A stretch of 48,552 bases of DNA from Clostridia bacterium (GTDB lineage Bacteria > Bacillota > DULZ01), in assembly GCA_012840125.1 (NCBI GenBank), contig DULZ01000024.1, positions 1-48,552 of the forward strand, in the 5' to 3' direction. This document shows positions 15,579 to 22,899 of the stretch, piece after piece; the stretch's first letter is position 1, and each line of letters begins with the position of its first letter. A program made the translations under genes and the position numbers. The notes beneath the pieces were generated by a model. The model ran no database searches. It was not told the DNA's origin and saw only the letters and a list, made by a program, of their open reading frames with translations.

Positions 15579-16694
15579 ATGCCGGTCATCATAGCGGCCG
15601 TTTTCGGCATAGGTATCCTGCTGCATTTTTTTGCTTTTCTAGTCGGGTTGTCCAGGATCAGGAGCATCCAAGGAGGCCGTGAACCCGAGGGCATTTCCGT
15701 CATTAAACCCGTCAAAGGGGTAGACGCAGAAGCATATGAAAATTTTAAATCTTTTTGTTGCCAGCAGTTATCTGTTCCCTACGAGTTAATTTTCGCCTTG
15801 CAGGATCCCCAGGACCCGGCCTTGCCGTTAATTGAGAAGCTCAAGCATGAGTATCCGGAGGTGGATATCCGCATTACCGTGAATCCGGTCAAGCATCCCT
15901 GGACCGGCAAGTGCAGCAACTTGTATTACGGCCTTCAACTGGCCAAATACGATTGCCTGGTGTTAAGTGATGCTGATATGCGGGTGGCTCCTGATTTCAT
16001 CTCCCGGATTACCTCGCAGCTGTACGGCCGGGGATTAGGGTTGGTCTCGGCTCTTCCCATTCATGTGGAGGCCAGGGGATTCTGGGCTTTGGTTTACCAA
16101 CTGCATCTCAACGCCACCATTTTGGCTCAATGGCTCCCCTGGGCTTCGGTATTCAAATTGGGAGTGGCCGGCGGGACAGTGGCCATCAAGAGAGAGGTTT
16201 TGGAGCAAATTGGGGGCATCGAGGCCATAGGCGATTATGTGGTGGAAGATGTGCAGTTAGGTTTTCTGGTGAAAGAAGCGGGATACGGCATCGCCGTTGG
16301 TCCGGAGATCTATTCCCCCGTGGGAGCGAAAACGAAAGAAGATGCGGTGAGTCTCATGGCGCGAGGTGCCATCATCTACCGGAGGATGCTGCACCTGGCT
16401 CTGGAAGTTCCTTATTTGGTGGTGGCTTATTTTTACCTGCCGTTACTGCTGGCCGGTATCATGTTTCTGGAGCCGAGCTTTTTGTGGGCTGCAGGTATAC
16501 ATTTGGGGTGCAAAATGCTCACCGGCTTCCTGATTTCCCGTACCGCCGGTACTTCCGGAGCGGAAACCTTATGCATACCGATTGCTGATTGCCTGTTTCT
16601 TTATATCTATGTCAGAACGGTTGTTTCCGGGGATTTGACCTGGCGGGGTATCTCTTACCGGGTGGATGGCAAAGGCAGGCGGCTGACATCGTAA
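15579..16694 (+). CDS. Family 2/21-type glycosyltransferase (ceramide glucosyltransferase-like)
   Basis: Membrane-associated glycosyltransferase of 371 residues, similar in layout to ceramide glucosyltransferases and HpnI. An N-terminal membrane helix (about 2-22) is followed by ISVIKPVKGVDAEAYENF and the metal-binding LSDADMRV (about 131-138). The acidic VVEDVQLGFLV lies at about 226-236, and two or three membrane helices stand at the C-terminus. The family adds a sugar to a lipid acceptor; the acceptor here is unknown. Being one gene away from an inositol-phosphate operon makes an inositol or polyprenyl lipid a possible target, but that is inference. The start ATG is 8 nt after GGGAGGTG, and the preceding gene ends 7 bp upstream. 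Confidence 0.88.
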   Translation: MPVIIAAVFGIGILLHFFAFLVGLSRIRSIQGGREPEGISVIKPVKGVDAEAYENFKSFCCQQLSVPYELIFALQDPQDPALPLIEKLKHEYPEVDIRITVNPVKHPWTGKCSNLYYGLQLAKYDCLVLSDADMRVAPDFISRITSQLYGRGLGLVSALPIHVEARGFWALVYQLHLNATILAQWLPWASVFKLGVAGGTVAIKREVLEQIGGIEAIGDYVVEDVQLGFLVKEAGYGIAVGPEIYSPVGAKTKEDAVSLMARGAIIYRRMLHLALEVPYLVVAYFYLPLLLAGIMFLEPSFLWAAGIHLGCKMLTGFLISRTAGTSGAETLCIPIADCLFLYIYVRTVVSGDLTWRGISYRVDGKGRRLTS

Positions 16695-16738
16695 GGAACA
16701 TTTCGGTGACGGAGATATCAGGAAAGAGGTGCTGTTCC

Positions 16739-17605
16739 ATGCAGAAACGGAGAACGGATTACCATGTACATCCCAACTATTCCATTGATGCTTCGCCGGT
16801 TACCATGTATGAGTATTGTGAGAAAGCATTACAATTGAACCTGGCAGAGATCTGTTTTACTACCCATGTGGAACTGGACCCGGTCAGGGAGCAGGTGGAG
16901 AATTTTGTTTATGTGGACGGTCGCCGGGTTCCGGTCCACGACCCCCATTGGCTGGACCGGTACTTTCAAGAATTACTGGAGGTGCGGGAAAGGTTTAATG
17001 AGGAAGGTTTGACGGTGCGGGCCGGGGTCGAAATCGGGTATTGCCCCGGTGTAGAAAAAGACATCGAAAGAATGATAGACAATTATCCCTTCGATTATGT
17101 GCTGGGGGCGATTCATTGTCTCGATCACATTTCCATTTCCTCCAAGAAAGAAAGCCCGGTTTACTTTCGGCGGAAAAGTGTCACCCAAATGGCCCAAGCC
17201 TACTTCCGGGTGCTGATGGAAGCGGTCCAAACCGGCTTATTTGATTGCATTGCTCATGTGGATCTCTATCGCAGGTACGGTTACAGCTTCTACGGGGATG
17301 CCGTTTTCACGGCCCATCGAGGATTCATTGAGCCGGTTTTTGCGGAGATGGCACGAAGGGGAATGGGTCTGGAAATTAATACTTCCAGCCGGCGCCGCGG
17401 GTTACAGGATTTTCACCCGGCGGAAGAAATTCTTTCATTAGCCGCCCAGCATGGCATCGCCATTTTTACCGTCGGATCGGATGCCCATTCCCTGGCGGAG
17501 CTGGGCGGGGATATTGATGAGGCTCTGGCGCTGCTGGAGCGGTACCGGCTGGAAAATTATGTCTTTACCCAAAGGAAACCTTGTCCTACCCGTGATGCTG
17601 CATGA
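16739..17605 (+). CDS. PHP-domain phosphatase (HisK/histidinol-phosphatase-like)
   Basis: Predicted metal-dependent phosphoesterase of 288 residues. The PHP metal ligands can be read in order: DYHVHPNYS (His-x-His), FTTHVE, AGVEIGY, GAIHCLDH, AHVDLYRR and GSDAHS. It resembles HisK-type histidinol phosphatases, but no histidine genes lie nearby, so the substrate may be another sugar or polyol phosphate. ATG 16739 follows GGAAAGAGGTG at 7 nt; the reading frame open upstream overlaps the glycosyltransferase and is not used. Its last 20 bp overlap, tail to tail, the end of the fused inositol-phosphate enzyme on the other strand. Confidence 0.9.
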   Translation: MQKRRTDYHVHPNYSIDASPVTMYEYCEKALQLNLAEICFTTHVELDPVREQVENFVYVDGRRVPVHDPHWLDRYFQELLEVRERFNEEGLTVRAGVEIGYCPGVEKDIERMIDNYPFDYVLGAIHCLDHISISSKKESPVYFRRKSVTQMAQAYFRVLMEAVQTGLFDCIAHVDLYRRYGYSFYGDAVFTAHRGFIEPVFAEMARRGMGLEINTSSRRRGLQDFHPAEEILSLAAQHGIAIFTVGSDAHSLAELGGDIDEALALLERYRLENYVFTQRKPCPTRDAA

Positions 17606-18929
17606 GCTGCCTGGCTTTGACCAGGCGGGCCAGAGCTTGCAGGTGGGTGATGAGGGCCAGCAAGATTAAGACCAGGGGGACTTGATTGAAAATACCTCCC
17701 AGCATGATCAGGAACAGCCGCCCGTCCCGGTTGGCGGGAAGGTAATGCAGTACACCGTCGTGAAGTTCGGGTATATAGGTGCTGCCCGTGAGAGCATGGT
17801 ATTTTTCCTTAAAAAGCATGGACATGGGGATGCCGGTTAGCGCCAAGACACCGAACACTAAAGCGGAAGGATGGGCTGCTTGGGCATACCAGCCGTAAAC
17901 CATGCCGAACACAATCATGTAATCCGCGTACCGGTCCAACACGGCGTCGAAAAGGGCGCCGAATTTATTTTGAAGGAACTTCAACCGGGCAATTTCCCCG
18001 TCAACCCCATCCAGAATGGAACAAAACTGGGCCAGCAGTCCTCCCGCCCAGGGCCGGCCCAGGCCGAAAGCCAGTGCCGAGGCTGCCGCCACTACCAGGG
18101 AAAGGAAGGTAATCTGGTTGGGGGTAACTTTCGTTTTGGCCAGCTGCCGGGTAATCGGCAGGGAAAAGCGGCGGTTGAGGTTTTTGGAAATAAACCCGTC
18201 TTTGGAAGGTATCAAGGCGTTAAGGAGCATTTTTTCCGCTTGCAGGTGACTGTCCCTGTCATCCACATCGATCCAGCGGCCGCTGATGAAATGGAGTTTT
18301 AGCCGTCCTGCGGCGGCCAGGGCATTGACGGCATCGGTGAGAGCATATGCTCCCTTATCAATGGCAGCCCCGAGGGCATCGAGCAGGGTTCCGGTGCCCA
18401 TAAACAAGCCGCAATCGACGGAGGAAAAATTTTTCAGGTCTTTTCCCAACCTTTCCGGCTTGTCGCCGGACATTTTTATTTTGGTGCATTCCTCTAAGTC
18501 AAAGACCTGCTCCAAATCGCGGTCCGCGGCCAGCAGGACCTGGTCCGGCGCCAGGCGTTGTTCTTGCGCCAAAAAGTCCTGCAGCACCTTTGGCTCGAAA
18601 ATGTGGTCTGCCATGACCAGCAAGAATCTTTCGCCGGGGCGGTAGGCCCGGTGAAAAGTATAGGCGGAGACACCGTTGCCTAATGCCCAATCCGGGTTGT
18701 GCAAGTACTCGACGGCTACGCCTAACCGCTTCCCGTCCCCCAGGTGGGTTTCGATTTCCCTGCGGTAACGGCCGGTGATCACGACAAACTCCTTGATACC
18801 ACAGGCCCGCAAAGAGAGAATGCTTCTTTCGATTAAAGATAAGCCGCATAAACGGATAAGAGGCTTGGGCCGGTCAAAACTAGCCCTGAGCCTCTTACCT
18901 TCTCCGGCGGCCAGGATCACCGCTCGCAC
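17586..18929 (-). CDS. Fused nucleotidyltransferase / CDP-alcohol phosphotransferase (IPCT-DIPPS-like)
   Basis: Two-domain membrane protein of 447 residues. The N-terminal half (about 1-235) is a sugar-nucleotidyltransferase fold with ILAAGEGKRLR, RPKPLIRL and VMADHIFE. The C-terminal half (about 245-447) has five or six membrane helices and the full CDP-alcohol phosphotransferase signature D-x2-DG-x2-AR-x8-G-x3-D-x3-D, seen as LDGVDGEIAR with GALFDAVLD (about 305-331). This fusion is the architecture of CTP:inositol-1-phosphate cytidylyltransferase/di-myo-inositol-phosphate-phosphate synthase from thermophiles. It starts at GTG 18929, sharing one base with the stop of the inositol-phosphate synthase gene, so translation is coupled. 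Alternative: an enzyme using another phosphopolyol. Confidence 0.88.
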   Translation of the reverse strand: MRAVILAAGEGKRLRASFDRPKPLIRLCGLSLIERSILSLRACGIKEFVVITGRYRREIETHLGDGKRLGVAVEYLHNPDWALGNGVSAYTFHRAYRPGERFLLVMADHIFEPKVLQDFLAQEQRLAPDQVLLAADRDLEQVFDLEECTKIKMSGDKPERLGKDLKNFSSVDCGLFMGTGTLLDALGAAIDKGAYALTDAVNALAAAGRLKLHFISGRWIDVDDRDSHLQAEKMLLNALIPSKDGFISKNLNRRFSLPITRQLAKTKVTPNQITFLSLVVAAASALAFGLGRPWAGGLLAQFCSILDGVDGEIARLKFLQNKFGALFDAVLDRYADYMIVFGMVYGWYAQAAHPSALVFGVLALTGIPMSMLFKEKYHALTGSTYIPELHDGVLHYLPANRDGRLFLIMLGGIFNQVPLVLILLALITHLQALARLVKARQLMQHHG

Positions 18930-20020
18930 TATCGTTCCCTCCTGCCGGCAATGAAATCTTCCACCATCTGTTTGGCCTCCGTATCGGTGTATTGTACCGG
19001 AGGAGATTTCATGGTGTAGGCGGAAATAGAATGGAGGATACCGCCGGTGCCCCGGTCTAAGGCCAGTTTCATGCAGCGGATGGCATCGATGATGACCCCC
19101 CCGCTATTGGGAGCATCTTCCACGGATAGCTTCACATCCAAAGTGAGGGGGACATTGCCGAAGCCCCTGCCTTCCATGCGAATATAGCAGATCTTGTTGT
19201 CGTTCAACCAGGGGACGTAGTCGCTGGGACCGATGTGAATCATATCATCTGCCAGGGAGACTTTCAGCTCAGATTGCACGGATTGGGTTTTCGATTTTTT
19301 CTTGGATGTTAACCGGCTGTGGTTGAGCATGTTCAGGAAGTCGGTGTTGCCGCCAAAGTTCAATTGGTAAGTACGGTCTAGGATAACACCCCTGTTTTCA
19401 AACAACTTGGTCAGGGTACGGTGGACAATGGTGGCCCCTACTTGGCTCTTAACATCATCGCCGATAAGCGGCAGTCCTTTTTCCTGAAATCTTTTCGCCC
19501 AGGCGGGATCCGAGGCAATGAAAACCGGCATGGCGTTAATGAATCCTACACCGGCTTCCAAACAGGCTTCTGCGTAGAAGCGGGCTGCCTGTTCTGAACC
19601 GACGGGCAGGTAGTTAATGAGCATTTCGGCGCCGGATTCTTTCAGCACTTTAACCACATCGCAAGGTTCCGCGTCGGCCACGATAAAGCGCCGGTCATCG
19701 GGATAATCGGCCATGTGTTCCGAGACCCCGTCCAGGACATGGCCCATCTGGACGGTAACAGGATAATCCGGAAGGTTCTCATAAAACACCGTGGTGCAAT
19801 TCGGCTTGGCAAAAACAGCTTCCTTCAGTTTCTTGCCGACCTTTCGTTGATCGATATCGAAAGCGGCAACGATATTAATGTCACCGGGAGTGTAACCTCC
19901 CAGGTTGTCATGCATTAAACCGATGGTGTTCTCCGGTGAGTGTTTGTACATTTCAATACCTTGCAGTAAAGCGCTGGCACAATTGCCGATGCCTGCAATA
20001 GCGACATTGATTTTACCCAT
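18929..20020 (-). CDS. ino1: myo-Inositol-1-phosphate synthase
   Basis: NAD-dependent conversion of glucose 6-phosphate to inositol 1-phosphate. The 363-residue product is the short prokaryotic type. It begins with a Rossmann motif (VAIAGIGNCASALLQG), has INYLPVGSEQAARFYAEA and GDDVKSQVGATIVHR, and contains LNFGGNTDFLNM and the lysine-rich SRLTSKKKSKTQSV typical of the active site. I chose ATG 20020, 9 nt after GGGAGG; an ATG six bases earlier is too close to that site. It is first gene of a two-gene operon with the fused phosphotransferase. A good promoter and an unusually long leader lie upstream. Confidence 0.95.
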   Translation of the reverse strand: MGKINVAIAGIGNCASALLQGIEMYKHSPENTIGLMHDNLGGYTPGDINIVAAFDIDQRKVGKKLKEAVFAKPNCTTVFYENLPDYPVTVQMGHVLDGVSEHMADYPDDRRFIVADAEPCDVVKVLKESGAEMLINYLPVGSEQAARFYAEACLEAGVGFINAMPVFIASDPAWAKRFQEKGLPLIGDDVKSQVGATIVHRTLTKLFENRGVILDRTYQLNFGGNTDFLNMLNHSRLTSKKKSKTQSVQSELKVSLADDMIHIGPSDYVPWLNDNKICYIRMEGRGFGNVPLTLDVKLSVEDAPNSGGVIIDAIRCMKLALDRGTGGILHSISAYTMKSPPVQYTDTEAKQMVEDFIAGRRER

Positions 20021-20026
20021 GTGCAT

Positions 20027-20240
20027 TCCCCTCCCAAATAATAATGTGTAATTTATTATTCAGGCGGGCTCATCCGGATTTCACCCAAAAGAAAACACTC
20101 CTTAATGCGGGAGTGTTTGACAAATCCATTAGTATAGTATTCTACAAGGAAAACCACTCCCATCAAGCCAAGCTACCCATGAACAGCCTAAAGGAATGCT
20201 CTTTCCTTGCTTTATTAGCACTCATCTAGCAGCGCTGCTA
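20027..20240 (-). promoter_or_regulatory. Structured leader of the ino1 operon with attenuator-like hairpins
   Basis: About 215 nt lie between the predicted start of transcription (near 20239) and the ribosome site. On the minus strand, AAACACTCC (20118-20110), loop, GGAGTGTTT (20101-20093) and a T-rich tail TTTTCTTTT form a terminator. The upstream stretch GGGAGTGGTTT (20161-20151) can pair with the same left arm AAACACTCCC (20118-20109) with one bulged G, so the two structures exclude each other. I do not recognise any known riboswitch or T-box sequence in it. A 20-codon ORF near its 5' end has no ribosome-binding site. Confidence 0.6.
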
Positions 20241-20245
20241 ACAAC

Positions 20246-20273
20246 ATTATAGCAGAAATTTTGGTAAAGACAA
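20246..20273 (-). promoter_or_regulatory. Sigma-A promoter of the ino1 operon
   Basis: Read on the minus strand: TTGTCT (20273-20268), 16-bp spacer, TATAAT (20251-20246). Confidence 0.7.
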
Positions 20274-20411: not shown

Positions 20412-20487
<76 letters not shown>

Positions 20488-20826: not shown

Positions 20827-21891
20827 ATGAAAATACGCCATTTAGGGCACCAAGTTTTGGTGATCAAGGAATTCGTACAAGGGGTGTTTCCCCTGGTGGA
20901 TGAGGAACTGCAAAAATGGGCGGCCCTGTTGGAGCACTGCCCTTGTGAAGCGCTGCGGTACCAGGCTTTGGCCAGTATCCGGACAAAGCGTTTTCACGCC
21001 CAGGGAGGCAGCATTTACGCTTTGTTTCCGGGAGTTGAGGTCAAGCCCTTTGTCCGTTTTGTGGTGGCCTTGCAGACCATCAGTGATTACCTGGATAATC
21101 TCTGTGACAGGGCCGGCGTCTATGAGGAAAAGGCCTTCCGGCAGCTCCATTTAGCCATGCAGGATGCCGTGATTCCGGCCCGGGAGCCGTGCCATGATTA
21201 TTACAAGTTTTTTCCCTATCAAGATGACGGAGGCTATCTCAGCGCCCTGGTCCGGGAGTGCCGGGAAGTCATTACTGGGTACCTGCCGGGTTATGGACAG
21301 GTTCAGGAGGACTTGTTGCGGCTAGTCAATTACTATATTGATCTGCAGAGTACCAAACATCTCAGTCTGGACGTGCGGGAGGAGATGATGCTTAACTGGG
21401 CTGCCAGGCACAAACCGCCCGAACTCACTCCCTGGGAATTTGGGGCTGCCACCGGTTCGACCCTGGGGATGTTTATGCTGGCAGCGGCGGCTTTCAAGGA
21501 AGATTTGACAGCCCAGGAGGTCTTACAAATTAAAGAAGCATATTTTCCCTGGGTGACCGGGTTGCACATTCTACTGGATTATTACATTGATCAAGAAGAA
21601 GACAGGGAGGAAGGGGACTTGAACTTTCTCCATTACTACGGCGACGGGACTACCTGTCAACAAAGGCTGATTCTGTTTGTGGAGCAAGCTTTAGCTAAAA
21701 CAGCCGCTTTGCCTGAACACCTTTTTCATGAGTTGGTCATCAAAGGATTGCTGGCGATGTATTTATCCGATCCTAAAGCCGTGCAGGGAGATAAGAAAGG
21801 AATTACCAGCCGGATCCTGGCCGCCGGAGGGTACAAGGCTTTGATCATGCACCGGATCTGTCAAAAGCTAAGAGCTTCAAAAAAACTATAA
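20827..21891 (+). CDS. ytpB: Tetraprenyl-beta-curcumene synthase-like terpene synthase (YtpB/DUF2600)
   Basis: All-helical terpene synthase of 354 residues, expected to convert heptaprenyl diphosphate (C35) to tetraprenyl-beta-curcumene or a similar sesquarterpene. The metal-binding motif ISDYLDNLCDRAG (about residues 84-96) matches the Asp-rich DYLDNLCDR of Bacillus YtpB. A second acidic motif, LLDYYIDQEEDREEGDLNF (about 252-270), fits the other side of the active site. The start ATG follows GAGGGG at 7 nt. It is convergent with a polyprenyl diphosphate synthase, only 3 bp separating the two stops, and that enzyme could supply its substrate. No squalene-hopene-type cyclase is in the window, so a later cyclisation step would have to be encoded elsewhere. 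Confidence 0.9.
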   Translation: MKIRHLGHQVLVIKEFVQGVFPLVDEELQKWAALLEHCPCEALRYQALASIRTKRFHAQGGSIYALFPGVEVKPFVRFVVALQTISDYLDNLCDRAGVYEEKAFRQLHLAMQDAVIPAREPCHDYYKFFPYQDDGGYLSALVRECREVITGYLPGYGQVQEDLLRLVNYYIDLQSTKHLSLDVREEMMLNWAARHKPPELTPWEFGAATGSTLGMFMLAAAAFKEDLTAQEVLQIKEAYFPWVTGLHILLDYYIDQEEDREEGDLNFLHYYGDGTTCQQRLILFVEQALAKTAALPEHLFHELVIKGLLAMYLSDPKAVQGDKKGITSRILAAGGYKALIMHRICQKLRASKKL

Positions 21892-21894
21892 CCT

Positions 21895-22899
21895 TTAATG
21901 CATGCGCTCCAGGACATAATCTGCAATGGAAGCCAGCATTTTTGTGGCGTTAGAACTAGGAAATACACCCAATTGTTCCTTGGCAGCCTCCACGAACATT
22001 TTGGCCTCCTCCTGTGCCGCATGAATGGCGCCTGAGTCTTCCAAAAGGCTGGTGAGCTCCTGCAAGGCAGCCGGGTCCCCGGGCAGCCGGTCTAAGAGTT
22101 CGCCGGTCCTACTGCCGTACTGGGGGTGATGCACGAGTTTGATCAGAGGCAGGGTGAAGTAACCCTGGCTCAAATCCAGTCCGGTGGGTTTGCCCAGGGT
22201 TTTGCTGTCCCCTTTGAGGTCCAGAATATCGTCAATGATCTGAAAAGCATAACCCAACCACCGGCCGTAATTCTGCAAAGAAAAAAGTTTTATGGGTTCG
22301 CTGCCTGCCAGCAGCGGCCCTACAGAGCAGCTGGCAACGATGAGTTTGCCGGTTTTTTTTTCAATCCGCTCTAAATAGAGTGCTTCCGATTGGATGCATT
22401 TACCCCTGGCCAGTGATTGCTCTATTTCACCGTCGCACATGGCTTCAATGGCGTCAACCACCAGTTCCAGCACGGGTAATAAACGAGCAGAAGAAAGCAA
22501 GCGAAAAGCCCTGGCGAACAAGAAATCCCCGGTCAAGACAGCCACATGGTTGCCCCAACGAGCGTTGATAGAAGGTAGACCGCGCCGCGTATCTGCATTA
22601 TCAATAATATCATCATGAACCAGTGAAGCCATATGGATTAATTCGATGGCGGAGGCGCATGTTACCACGTCCTCAAAATCGGCGTTGAGGAGTCGCCCTG
22701 AAAGACAGGCCAACATGGGGCGGATTCTTTTGCCGCCCGCTTCCAAGAGGTACTGGGACACTTCTTTGACGGCGCCGCAATTCTCGCTCAGGATGGCGCG
22801 CAGTTTTGTTTCTACTGCGGCCAATTCCGGCAGGAAACCGGTGCCGGCCATGAGGTCCCGGATTTGTTCATTTTGGCGAAAAGATAATATTGTTTTCAT
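21895..22899 (-). CDS. Long-chain polyprenyl diphosphate synthase (heptaprenyl type likely)
   Basis: Head-to-tail prenyltransferase of 334 residues that extends farnesyl or geranylgeranyl diphosphate with isopentenyl units. It has GGKRIRPML, the first aspartate-rich motif VHDDIIDNADTRRG (about 93-106) and the second QIIDDILDLKGD (about 218-229). The residue five positions before the first motif is small (Ala in HMASLVHDD), which favours long products. Chain length cannot be fixed from sequence, but convergence with a C35 terpene synthase makes heptaprenyl diphosphate likely; it may also feed menaquinone. Start ATG 22899 follows GGGGATGA. Confidence 0.92.
   Translation of the reverse strand: MKTILSFRQNEQIRDLMAGTGFLPELAAVETKLRAILSENCGAVKEVSQYLLEAGGKRIRPMLACLSGRLLNADFEDVVTCASAIELIHMASLVHDDIIDNADTRRGLPSINARWGNHVAVLTGDFLFARAFRLLSSARLLPVLELVVDAIEAMCDGEIEQSLARGKCIQSEALYLERIEKKTGKLIVASCSVGPLLAGSEPIKLFSLQNYGRWLGYAFQIIDDILDLKGDSKTLGKPTGLDLSQGYFTLPLIKLVHHPQYGSRTGELLDRLPGDPAALQELTSLLEDSGAIHAAQEEAKMFVEAAKEQLGVFPSSNATKMLASIADYVLERMH

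Follow-up and report, generated by a model that had tools for sequence, protein, structure and literature searches.

A CIRCE element and a conserved transcription attenuator precede a predicted di-myo-inositol phosphate operon in a Clostridia bacterium

The ino1 operon, its promoter and its leader RNA

The window analysed here is a stretch of 48,552 nucleotides from a Clostridia bacterium, and its minus strand carries ino1 and a second gene behind a promoter, a CIRCE element and a structured leader. The features are as follows:

20246..20273, minus strand: sigma-70-type ino1 promoter, TTGTCT-16 nt-TATAAT, with TG before the -10 box
20215..20241, minus strand: CIRCE element (HrcA operator), TTAGCAGCG-CTGCTAGAT-GAGTGCTAA, at the predicted transcription start
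20144..20210, minus strand: 5' hairpin (putative anti-antiterminator), folding z -3.02, kept in 17 leaders
20198-20193, minus strand: segment S, CAUUCC, paired with A inside the 5' hairpin
20155..20161, minus strand: segment A, GGGAGUG, with S or B as alternative partners and covariation with B
20093..20118, minus strand: intrinsic terminator stem, with B as left arm (AAACACTCC), C as right arm (GGAGTGTTT) and a T-rich tail to about 20085
18929..20026, minus strand: ino1, myo-inositol-1-phosphate synthase (PF01658)
17586..18929, minus strand: second gene, fused IPCT/DIPPS (4mnd homology, Pfam domains, NF041135)

The start of ino1 was set by homology at the ATG at 20020, so that the protein begins MGKINVAIAG, and its product gives a full-length match to TIGR03450 with a score under the cut-off of that model. 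In the second gene, nucleotidyltransferase and CDP-alcohol transferase domains are fused according to Pfam, and the product aligns with Archaeoglobus IPCT/DIPPS (PDB 4mnd) over residues 1–423, spanning both domains, with an E-value of 2.3e-55; NF041135 is the best NCBIfam model, also with a score below its cut-off. Because the genes encode myo-inositol-1-phosphate synthase and a fused IPCT/DIPPS, the product of the operon should be di-myo-inositol phosphate (DIP), a thermoprotective solute.

A gene for a PHP-domain phosphatase-like protein (16589-17605, plus strand) is convergent to the IPCT/DIPPS gene, as it is in close relatives (L006, L007, L008 and L010), and in a distant clade (L069, L071 and L099) the sequence directly 5' of ino1 resembles the same family by eye. 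The PHP-domain gene is a candidate for the phosphatase step in DIP synthesis. Just upstream of the ino1 promoter and on the same strand lies a tRNA gene (20415-20487, minus strand) with its own strong promoter, TTGACA-17-TATAGT, from which transcription running on into the ino1 leader would bypass HrcA. Farther along, a DUF2600 protein gene (20827-21891, plus strand), from the family of the Bacillus YtpB-like terpene synthases, and a polyprenyl diphosphate synthase-like gene (21895-22899, minus strand) converge tail to tail.

An earlier sequence-only reading of this DNA had described a good promoter upstream of the leader, and TTGTCT-16-TATAAT is indeed found at 20273-20246 on the minus strand, where it matches 10 of 12 consensus positions; in relatives as well, a TATAAT-like box lies just 5' of the CIRCE element. 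The same reading had proposed that a terminator hairpin competes with an upstream segment, and both elements are real, with GGGAGTGGTTT at 20161-20151 and AAACACTCC at 20118-20110 on the minus strand. The terminator stem (20118-20093) has 9 bp, a loop of 8 and a T-rich tail. A scan for terminator patterns is not significant by itself, with two found and 1.5 expected in shuffles. The proposed pairing of GGGAGTGGTTT with the terminator arm holds over 7–8 contiguous base pairs (GGGAGUG:CACUCCC) and does not extend over the full 11 nucleotides. Segment S, the upstream partner of A, had been overlooked. In folding stability the whole leader exceeds all its dinucleotide shuffles (200 of 200, z -2.98), and the 5' hairpin exceeds all but one of 200.

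The suggestion that no known riboswitch is present was borne out by the Rfam scan that the earlier reading had called for, in which no family reached its gathering score in the leader; with Rfam 15 at permissive E-values up to 5 only chance-level matches appeared, and no T-box or known riboswitch matched the ino1 leader. Ribosome-mediated attenuation was rejected on reading the leaders across relatives, none of which revealed a conserved leader peptide ORF over S. The sole leader ORF in the window begins with a GTG inside the CIRCE element and meets early stops in two relatives (L037 and L050), and no conserved start with a ribosome site was found in the ino1 leaders read.

The CIRCE element in the genome and among relatives

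Chaperone genes are the textbook targets of repression by HrcA. The operator sequence of HrcA, which the sequence-only reading overlooked between the promoter and the leader, lies at 20241-20215 directly 3' of the -10 box and reads TTAGCAGCG-N9-GAGTGCTAA, the consensus being TTAGCACTC-N9-GAGTGCTAA (PMC3842655). The ino1 site agrees with 15 of 18 consensus positions; its right arm is perfect, its spacer is exact, and all three mismatches are in the left arm. It is the sole match with at most three mismatches in the window, where 0.01 would be expected, and the whole 2.47-Mb genome contains only four sites at this threshold, compared with none in the reversed control. The other three sites lie 5' of hrcA and of two groESL (groES-groEL) operons, perfect CIRCE sites occurring at hrcA and groESL. 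The two groES-groEL loci, each with its own CIRCE, are found at G000:C57:19594 (L001) and G000:C105:11320 (L003). The genome also encodes HrcA itself (PF01628, E-value 3.8e-60), a homologue of 1stz.

In order to survey the operator among relatives, 399 genomes of the phylum were drawn evenly, 25 of which contained the downstream enzyme. The close group comprised 16 genomes with an enzyme identity of at least 59%, and 14 of these could be assessed. A CIRCE with at most four mismatches was present at the ino1 promoter in 13 of the 14, the only exception being G096. All eight assessable genomes with 42–48% enzyme identity lacked it. Twelve of the 13 sites came from a scan limited to 409 nucleotides upstream, and for each of these 12 no more than 1 of 200 dinucleotide shuffles of the upstream region did as well; the thirteenth (G146, which is L052), at -449, came from a separate scan. 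When public genome contigs were scanned, about 20 CIRCE-ino1 promoters turned up, in most of which a TATAAT-like box lies a few bases 5' of the element. One contig (L045) was excluded as apparently misjoined. Most of the genomes compared are metagenome assemblies, and the statistics count related species as separate.

The left arm in the ino1 relatives is mostly TTAGCAGC, and left arms TTAGCAGT or TTGGCAGC also occur 5' of Hsp20, ClpB and hrcA genes in other genera, so a deviating left arm is an accepted variant. The three left-arm mismatches in the window are what would favour a chance match, or one unrelated to HrcA control. We regard this explanation as very improbable, given four sites genome-wide against none in the control, a site kept in place in nearly all close relatives, the same left-arm variant before Hsp20, ClpB and hrcA elsewhere, and an ino1 CIRCE with a single mismatch in one relative (L040).

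A CIRCE-like site, TTAGCAGCC-N9-GAGTGCTAA or close to it, was also seen 3' of the promoter of another operon (L153-L160, L162 and L161), which encodes a sugar-nucleotide transferase, a glycosyltransferase and a glycoside-hydrolase-like protein. The genomes concerned are G384, G253, G085, G229, G365 and G120 for L153-L160 and L162, and G266 for L159 and L161. In other Bacillota, a further carbohydrate pathway may be under HrcA control. In G266 (reverse complement of L161, about 120-550) a leader of about 400 nucleotides with a terminator-like hairpin separates the CIRCE from the nucleotidyltransferase gene, which may be a second case of a CIRCE combined with an attenuator.

Conservation of the attenuator and its possible signals

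Seventeen leaders with a CIRCE, from about 17 species, fold independently into one long hairpin in which S faces A. Across the leaders S is typically CUUCUG[AG]UU and A is AAUYGGGAGUG, and in nearly all of them the hairpin is followed by B (CACUCCC or CACUUCC), C and a T run. The poorest fit is L072, in which B and C are disturbed. Automatic terminator calls were replaced by hand reading for L040, L042, L052, L054, L072 and L056. The A:B pairing was assessed in a sequence-only MAFFT alignment of 13 leaders, in which standard pairs occupy 88.8% of cells compared with 80.9 +/- 1.7% in shuffles and the covariation score is 0.323 compared with 0.189, neither value being reached in 500 shuffles, with kinship ignored in both cases. 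With the partner slid out of register, pairing falls to 37–49%, and a separate test by cross-species permutation gave 0 of 5000. For S:A, 95.7% of cells are paired, and the covariation is weaker than for A:B because S hardly varies. Wobble pairs make up 45 of the 112 paired cells for S:A and 11 of 127 for A:B.

The two-state layout put forward in the sequence-only reading is supported by this conservation across species and by the A:B covariation, the ino1 leaders of relatives containing just such a conserved, covarying structure. Since A lies outside the terminator and yet covaries with B, the data indicate that the antiterminator is under selection. A constitutive partial terminator, with the CIRCE as the sole regulated step, would not require this covariation, nor does it sit well with the retention of S:A in 17 leaders; we consider it unlikely, even though two relatives with a CIRCE (L043/G047 and G398) lack the S/A hairpin. 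On the other hand, four leaders (L049, L055, L060 and L061) have the A/B/C attenuator and no CIRCE, with another 5' domain in place of the hairpin. Hence the operator and the attenuator are not obligately linked. The four CIRCE-free leaders share a 5' domain, GCAAACUGCAACA...UGUUGUAUUUUGC, enclosing GGAAUG..GCAUG..GGAAGUG, for which there was no match in Rfam and which suggests a different sensor for the same operon. Between A and B, the leaders L038, L039, L040 and L079 have a long insert that is conserved in L038 and L039 and partly in L040 and L079.

A search of the genome with a model of the hairpin found one place, the ino1 leader, and for this reason the RNA looks like a dedicated device. 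When the model (R1) was run against 61 genomes the top four matches were ino1 leaders; the next matches inspected (L118-L122, E-values of 2.8e-4 and weaker) proved to be unrelated hairpins or terminators and were discarded.

The sequence-only reading had raised the possibility of a new ligand-binding RNA, and a new class of metabolite riboswitch answering to an inositol phosphate, CDP-inositol, DIP or an ion would be in keeping with the two-state layout, with a hairpin found in its own genome only before the DIP pathway, and with the different conserved 5' domain of the CIRCE-free leaders. In the 5' domain there is one long, almost uninterrupted hairpin and no multi-helix junction, the leader matches no Rfam family, and no conserved junction or unpaired core was found in this domain across the leaders. 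Conservation is confined to the paired segments S and A, the conserved bases being explained by pairing with A, and the lack of conserved bases outside pairs makes a metabolite aptamer less likely. The ligand-binding proposal is not supported, and we consider a riboswitch unlikely.

Temperature was among the signals suggested earlier, and is strongly supported at the DNA level through HrcA and CIRCE; at the RNA level, switching with temperature is calculated in some relatives only. For the window, the calculation favours the terminated state at equilibrium at every temperature tried, G(ON)-G(OFF) being positive throughout, and as long as C has not emerged the S:A pairing stays at or above 93% up to 75 C. 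In five relatives (L037, L042, L046, L050 and L059) a switch from S:A to A:B is calculated between 37 and 75 C, and in other relatives A:B is preferred already at 37 C. A pure equilibrium thermoswitch was accordingly rejected, as it is not general across relatives and is absent in the calculation for the window. Given that relatives differ in this way, a shared thermometer is possible without being supported by the energies alone. Warming might melt the wobble-rich S:A stem and free A for the wobble-poor pairing with B, in an operon already under a heat-shock operator, and the five calculated switches are consistent with such an RNA thermometer acting on termination; the firm hold of S on A in the window, its positive energy difference at all temperatures and the preference for A:B at 37 C in some relatives make it a rather doubtful reading.

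Because the terminated state is favoured in the window and A is held by S, something must open the hairpin. The leading guess, held with modest confidence, is an RNA-binding protein that would grip the 5' hairpin or S/A and shift the choice to A:B, causing antitermination. This need for an outside agent, the plain long form of the hairpin and the nearly constant S are all compatible with such a protein. The constancy of S is also accounted for if S has to match each form that A takes, and we put the protein forward tentatively.

Proposed two-layer control and comparison with known systems

We consider it likely, judging from sequence comparisons, that the DIP operon is controlled by two stacked layers, HrcA and CIRCE at initiation and a dedicated attenuator at elongation. 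HrcA is known to repress CIRCE promoters, with relief when unfolded proteins make GroE unavailable (PMC3842655, PMC8533110). In the first layer, HrcA would bind the CIRCE at the transcription start and repress the operon until heat or another protein-folding stress occupied GroE and HrcA was released, and the thermoprotective solute would then be made together with GroESL and DnaK. In the second layer, the nascent leader would decide whether RNA polymerase gets to ino1. By default in this species the S:A hairpin would form, B would pair with C and transcription would stop; if the 5' hairpin were opened, A would pair with B, the terminator would be blocked and the operon would be read. HrcA binding, heat induction and DIP as the product are what we infer from the sequences, along with derepression of the operon together with the chaperones. 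It is conceivable, if unlikely, that the operon responds to heat at two levels, through HrcA at the DNA and through the wobble-weakened RNA stem, with warming or a heat-stress protein releasing the antiterminator.

HrcA/CIRCE and attenuators are each already well known. A search of the open-access literature returned no paper tying HrcA or CIRCE to ino1, DIP or a compatible-solute operon, and as far as that literature shows, both the compatible-solute operon as a target and the stacking of a CIRCE on a dedicated attenuator are new. One repressor would serve both the protein chaperones and DIP, a chemical chaperone, and this would add a metabolic target to the very small HrcA regulon and offer a testable mechanism by which DIP could be increased with temperature in thermophilic bacteria. 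A heat switch is in line with the earlier record of DIP genes, which before deep-sea archaea had come only from organisms with growth above 55 C (PMC8397731). The locus also provides a conserved attenuator, and purified polymerase can be used to look for its signal. Should temperature be sensed by the RNA itself, this would be a natural RNA thermometer that controls the termination of transcription and not translation.

The ino1 promoter resembles the HrcA/CIRCE class I regulon of the groE and dnaK operons in operator sequence, spacer length and position at the transcription start, and in the presence of HrcA and of CIRCE at hrcA and groESL in the same genome. It differs in that the target is a compatible-solute pathway and not a chaperone, the left arm of the ino1 sites is usually TTAGCAGC, and a long leader with an attenuator follows. 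With known transcription attenuators (riboswitch platforms, T-boxes and protein-controlled leaders) the ino1 leader shares the exclusive pairings S:A, A:B and B:C followed by a T run, whereas its 5' part is a plain long hairpin without a known sensor domain or Rfam match.

The IPCT/DIPPS of Archaeoglobus fulgidus (PDB 4mnd) is homologous to the second gene product over nearly its full length, including both fused domains; the protein described here is a bacterial version, scoring below the NCBIfam cut-off set for Thermococcales. Keese et al. in 2010 reportedly found PF1616 of Pyrococcus furiosus to be controlled by the archaeal repressor Phr. This gene, which encodes a DIP-pathway synthase, is induced by 4 log2 units on heat shock (PMC10746257). 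The same solute pathway thus answers to heat shock in Thermococcales, and the arrangement described here would be the bacterial counterpart of the Pyrococcus response in DIP synthesis, with HrcA/CIRCE and an RNA layer in place of the archaeal repressor, in what would be a case of convergent wiring.
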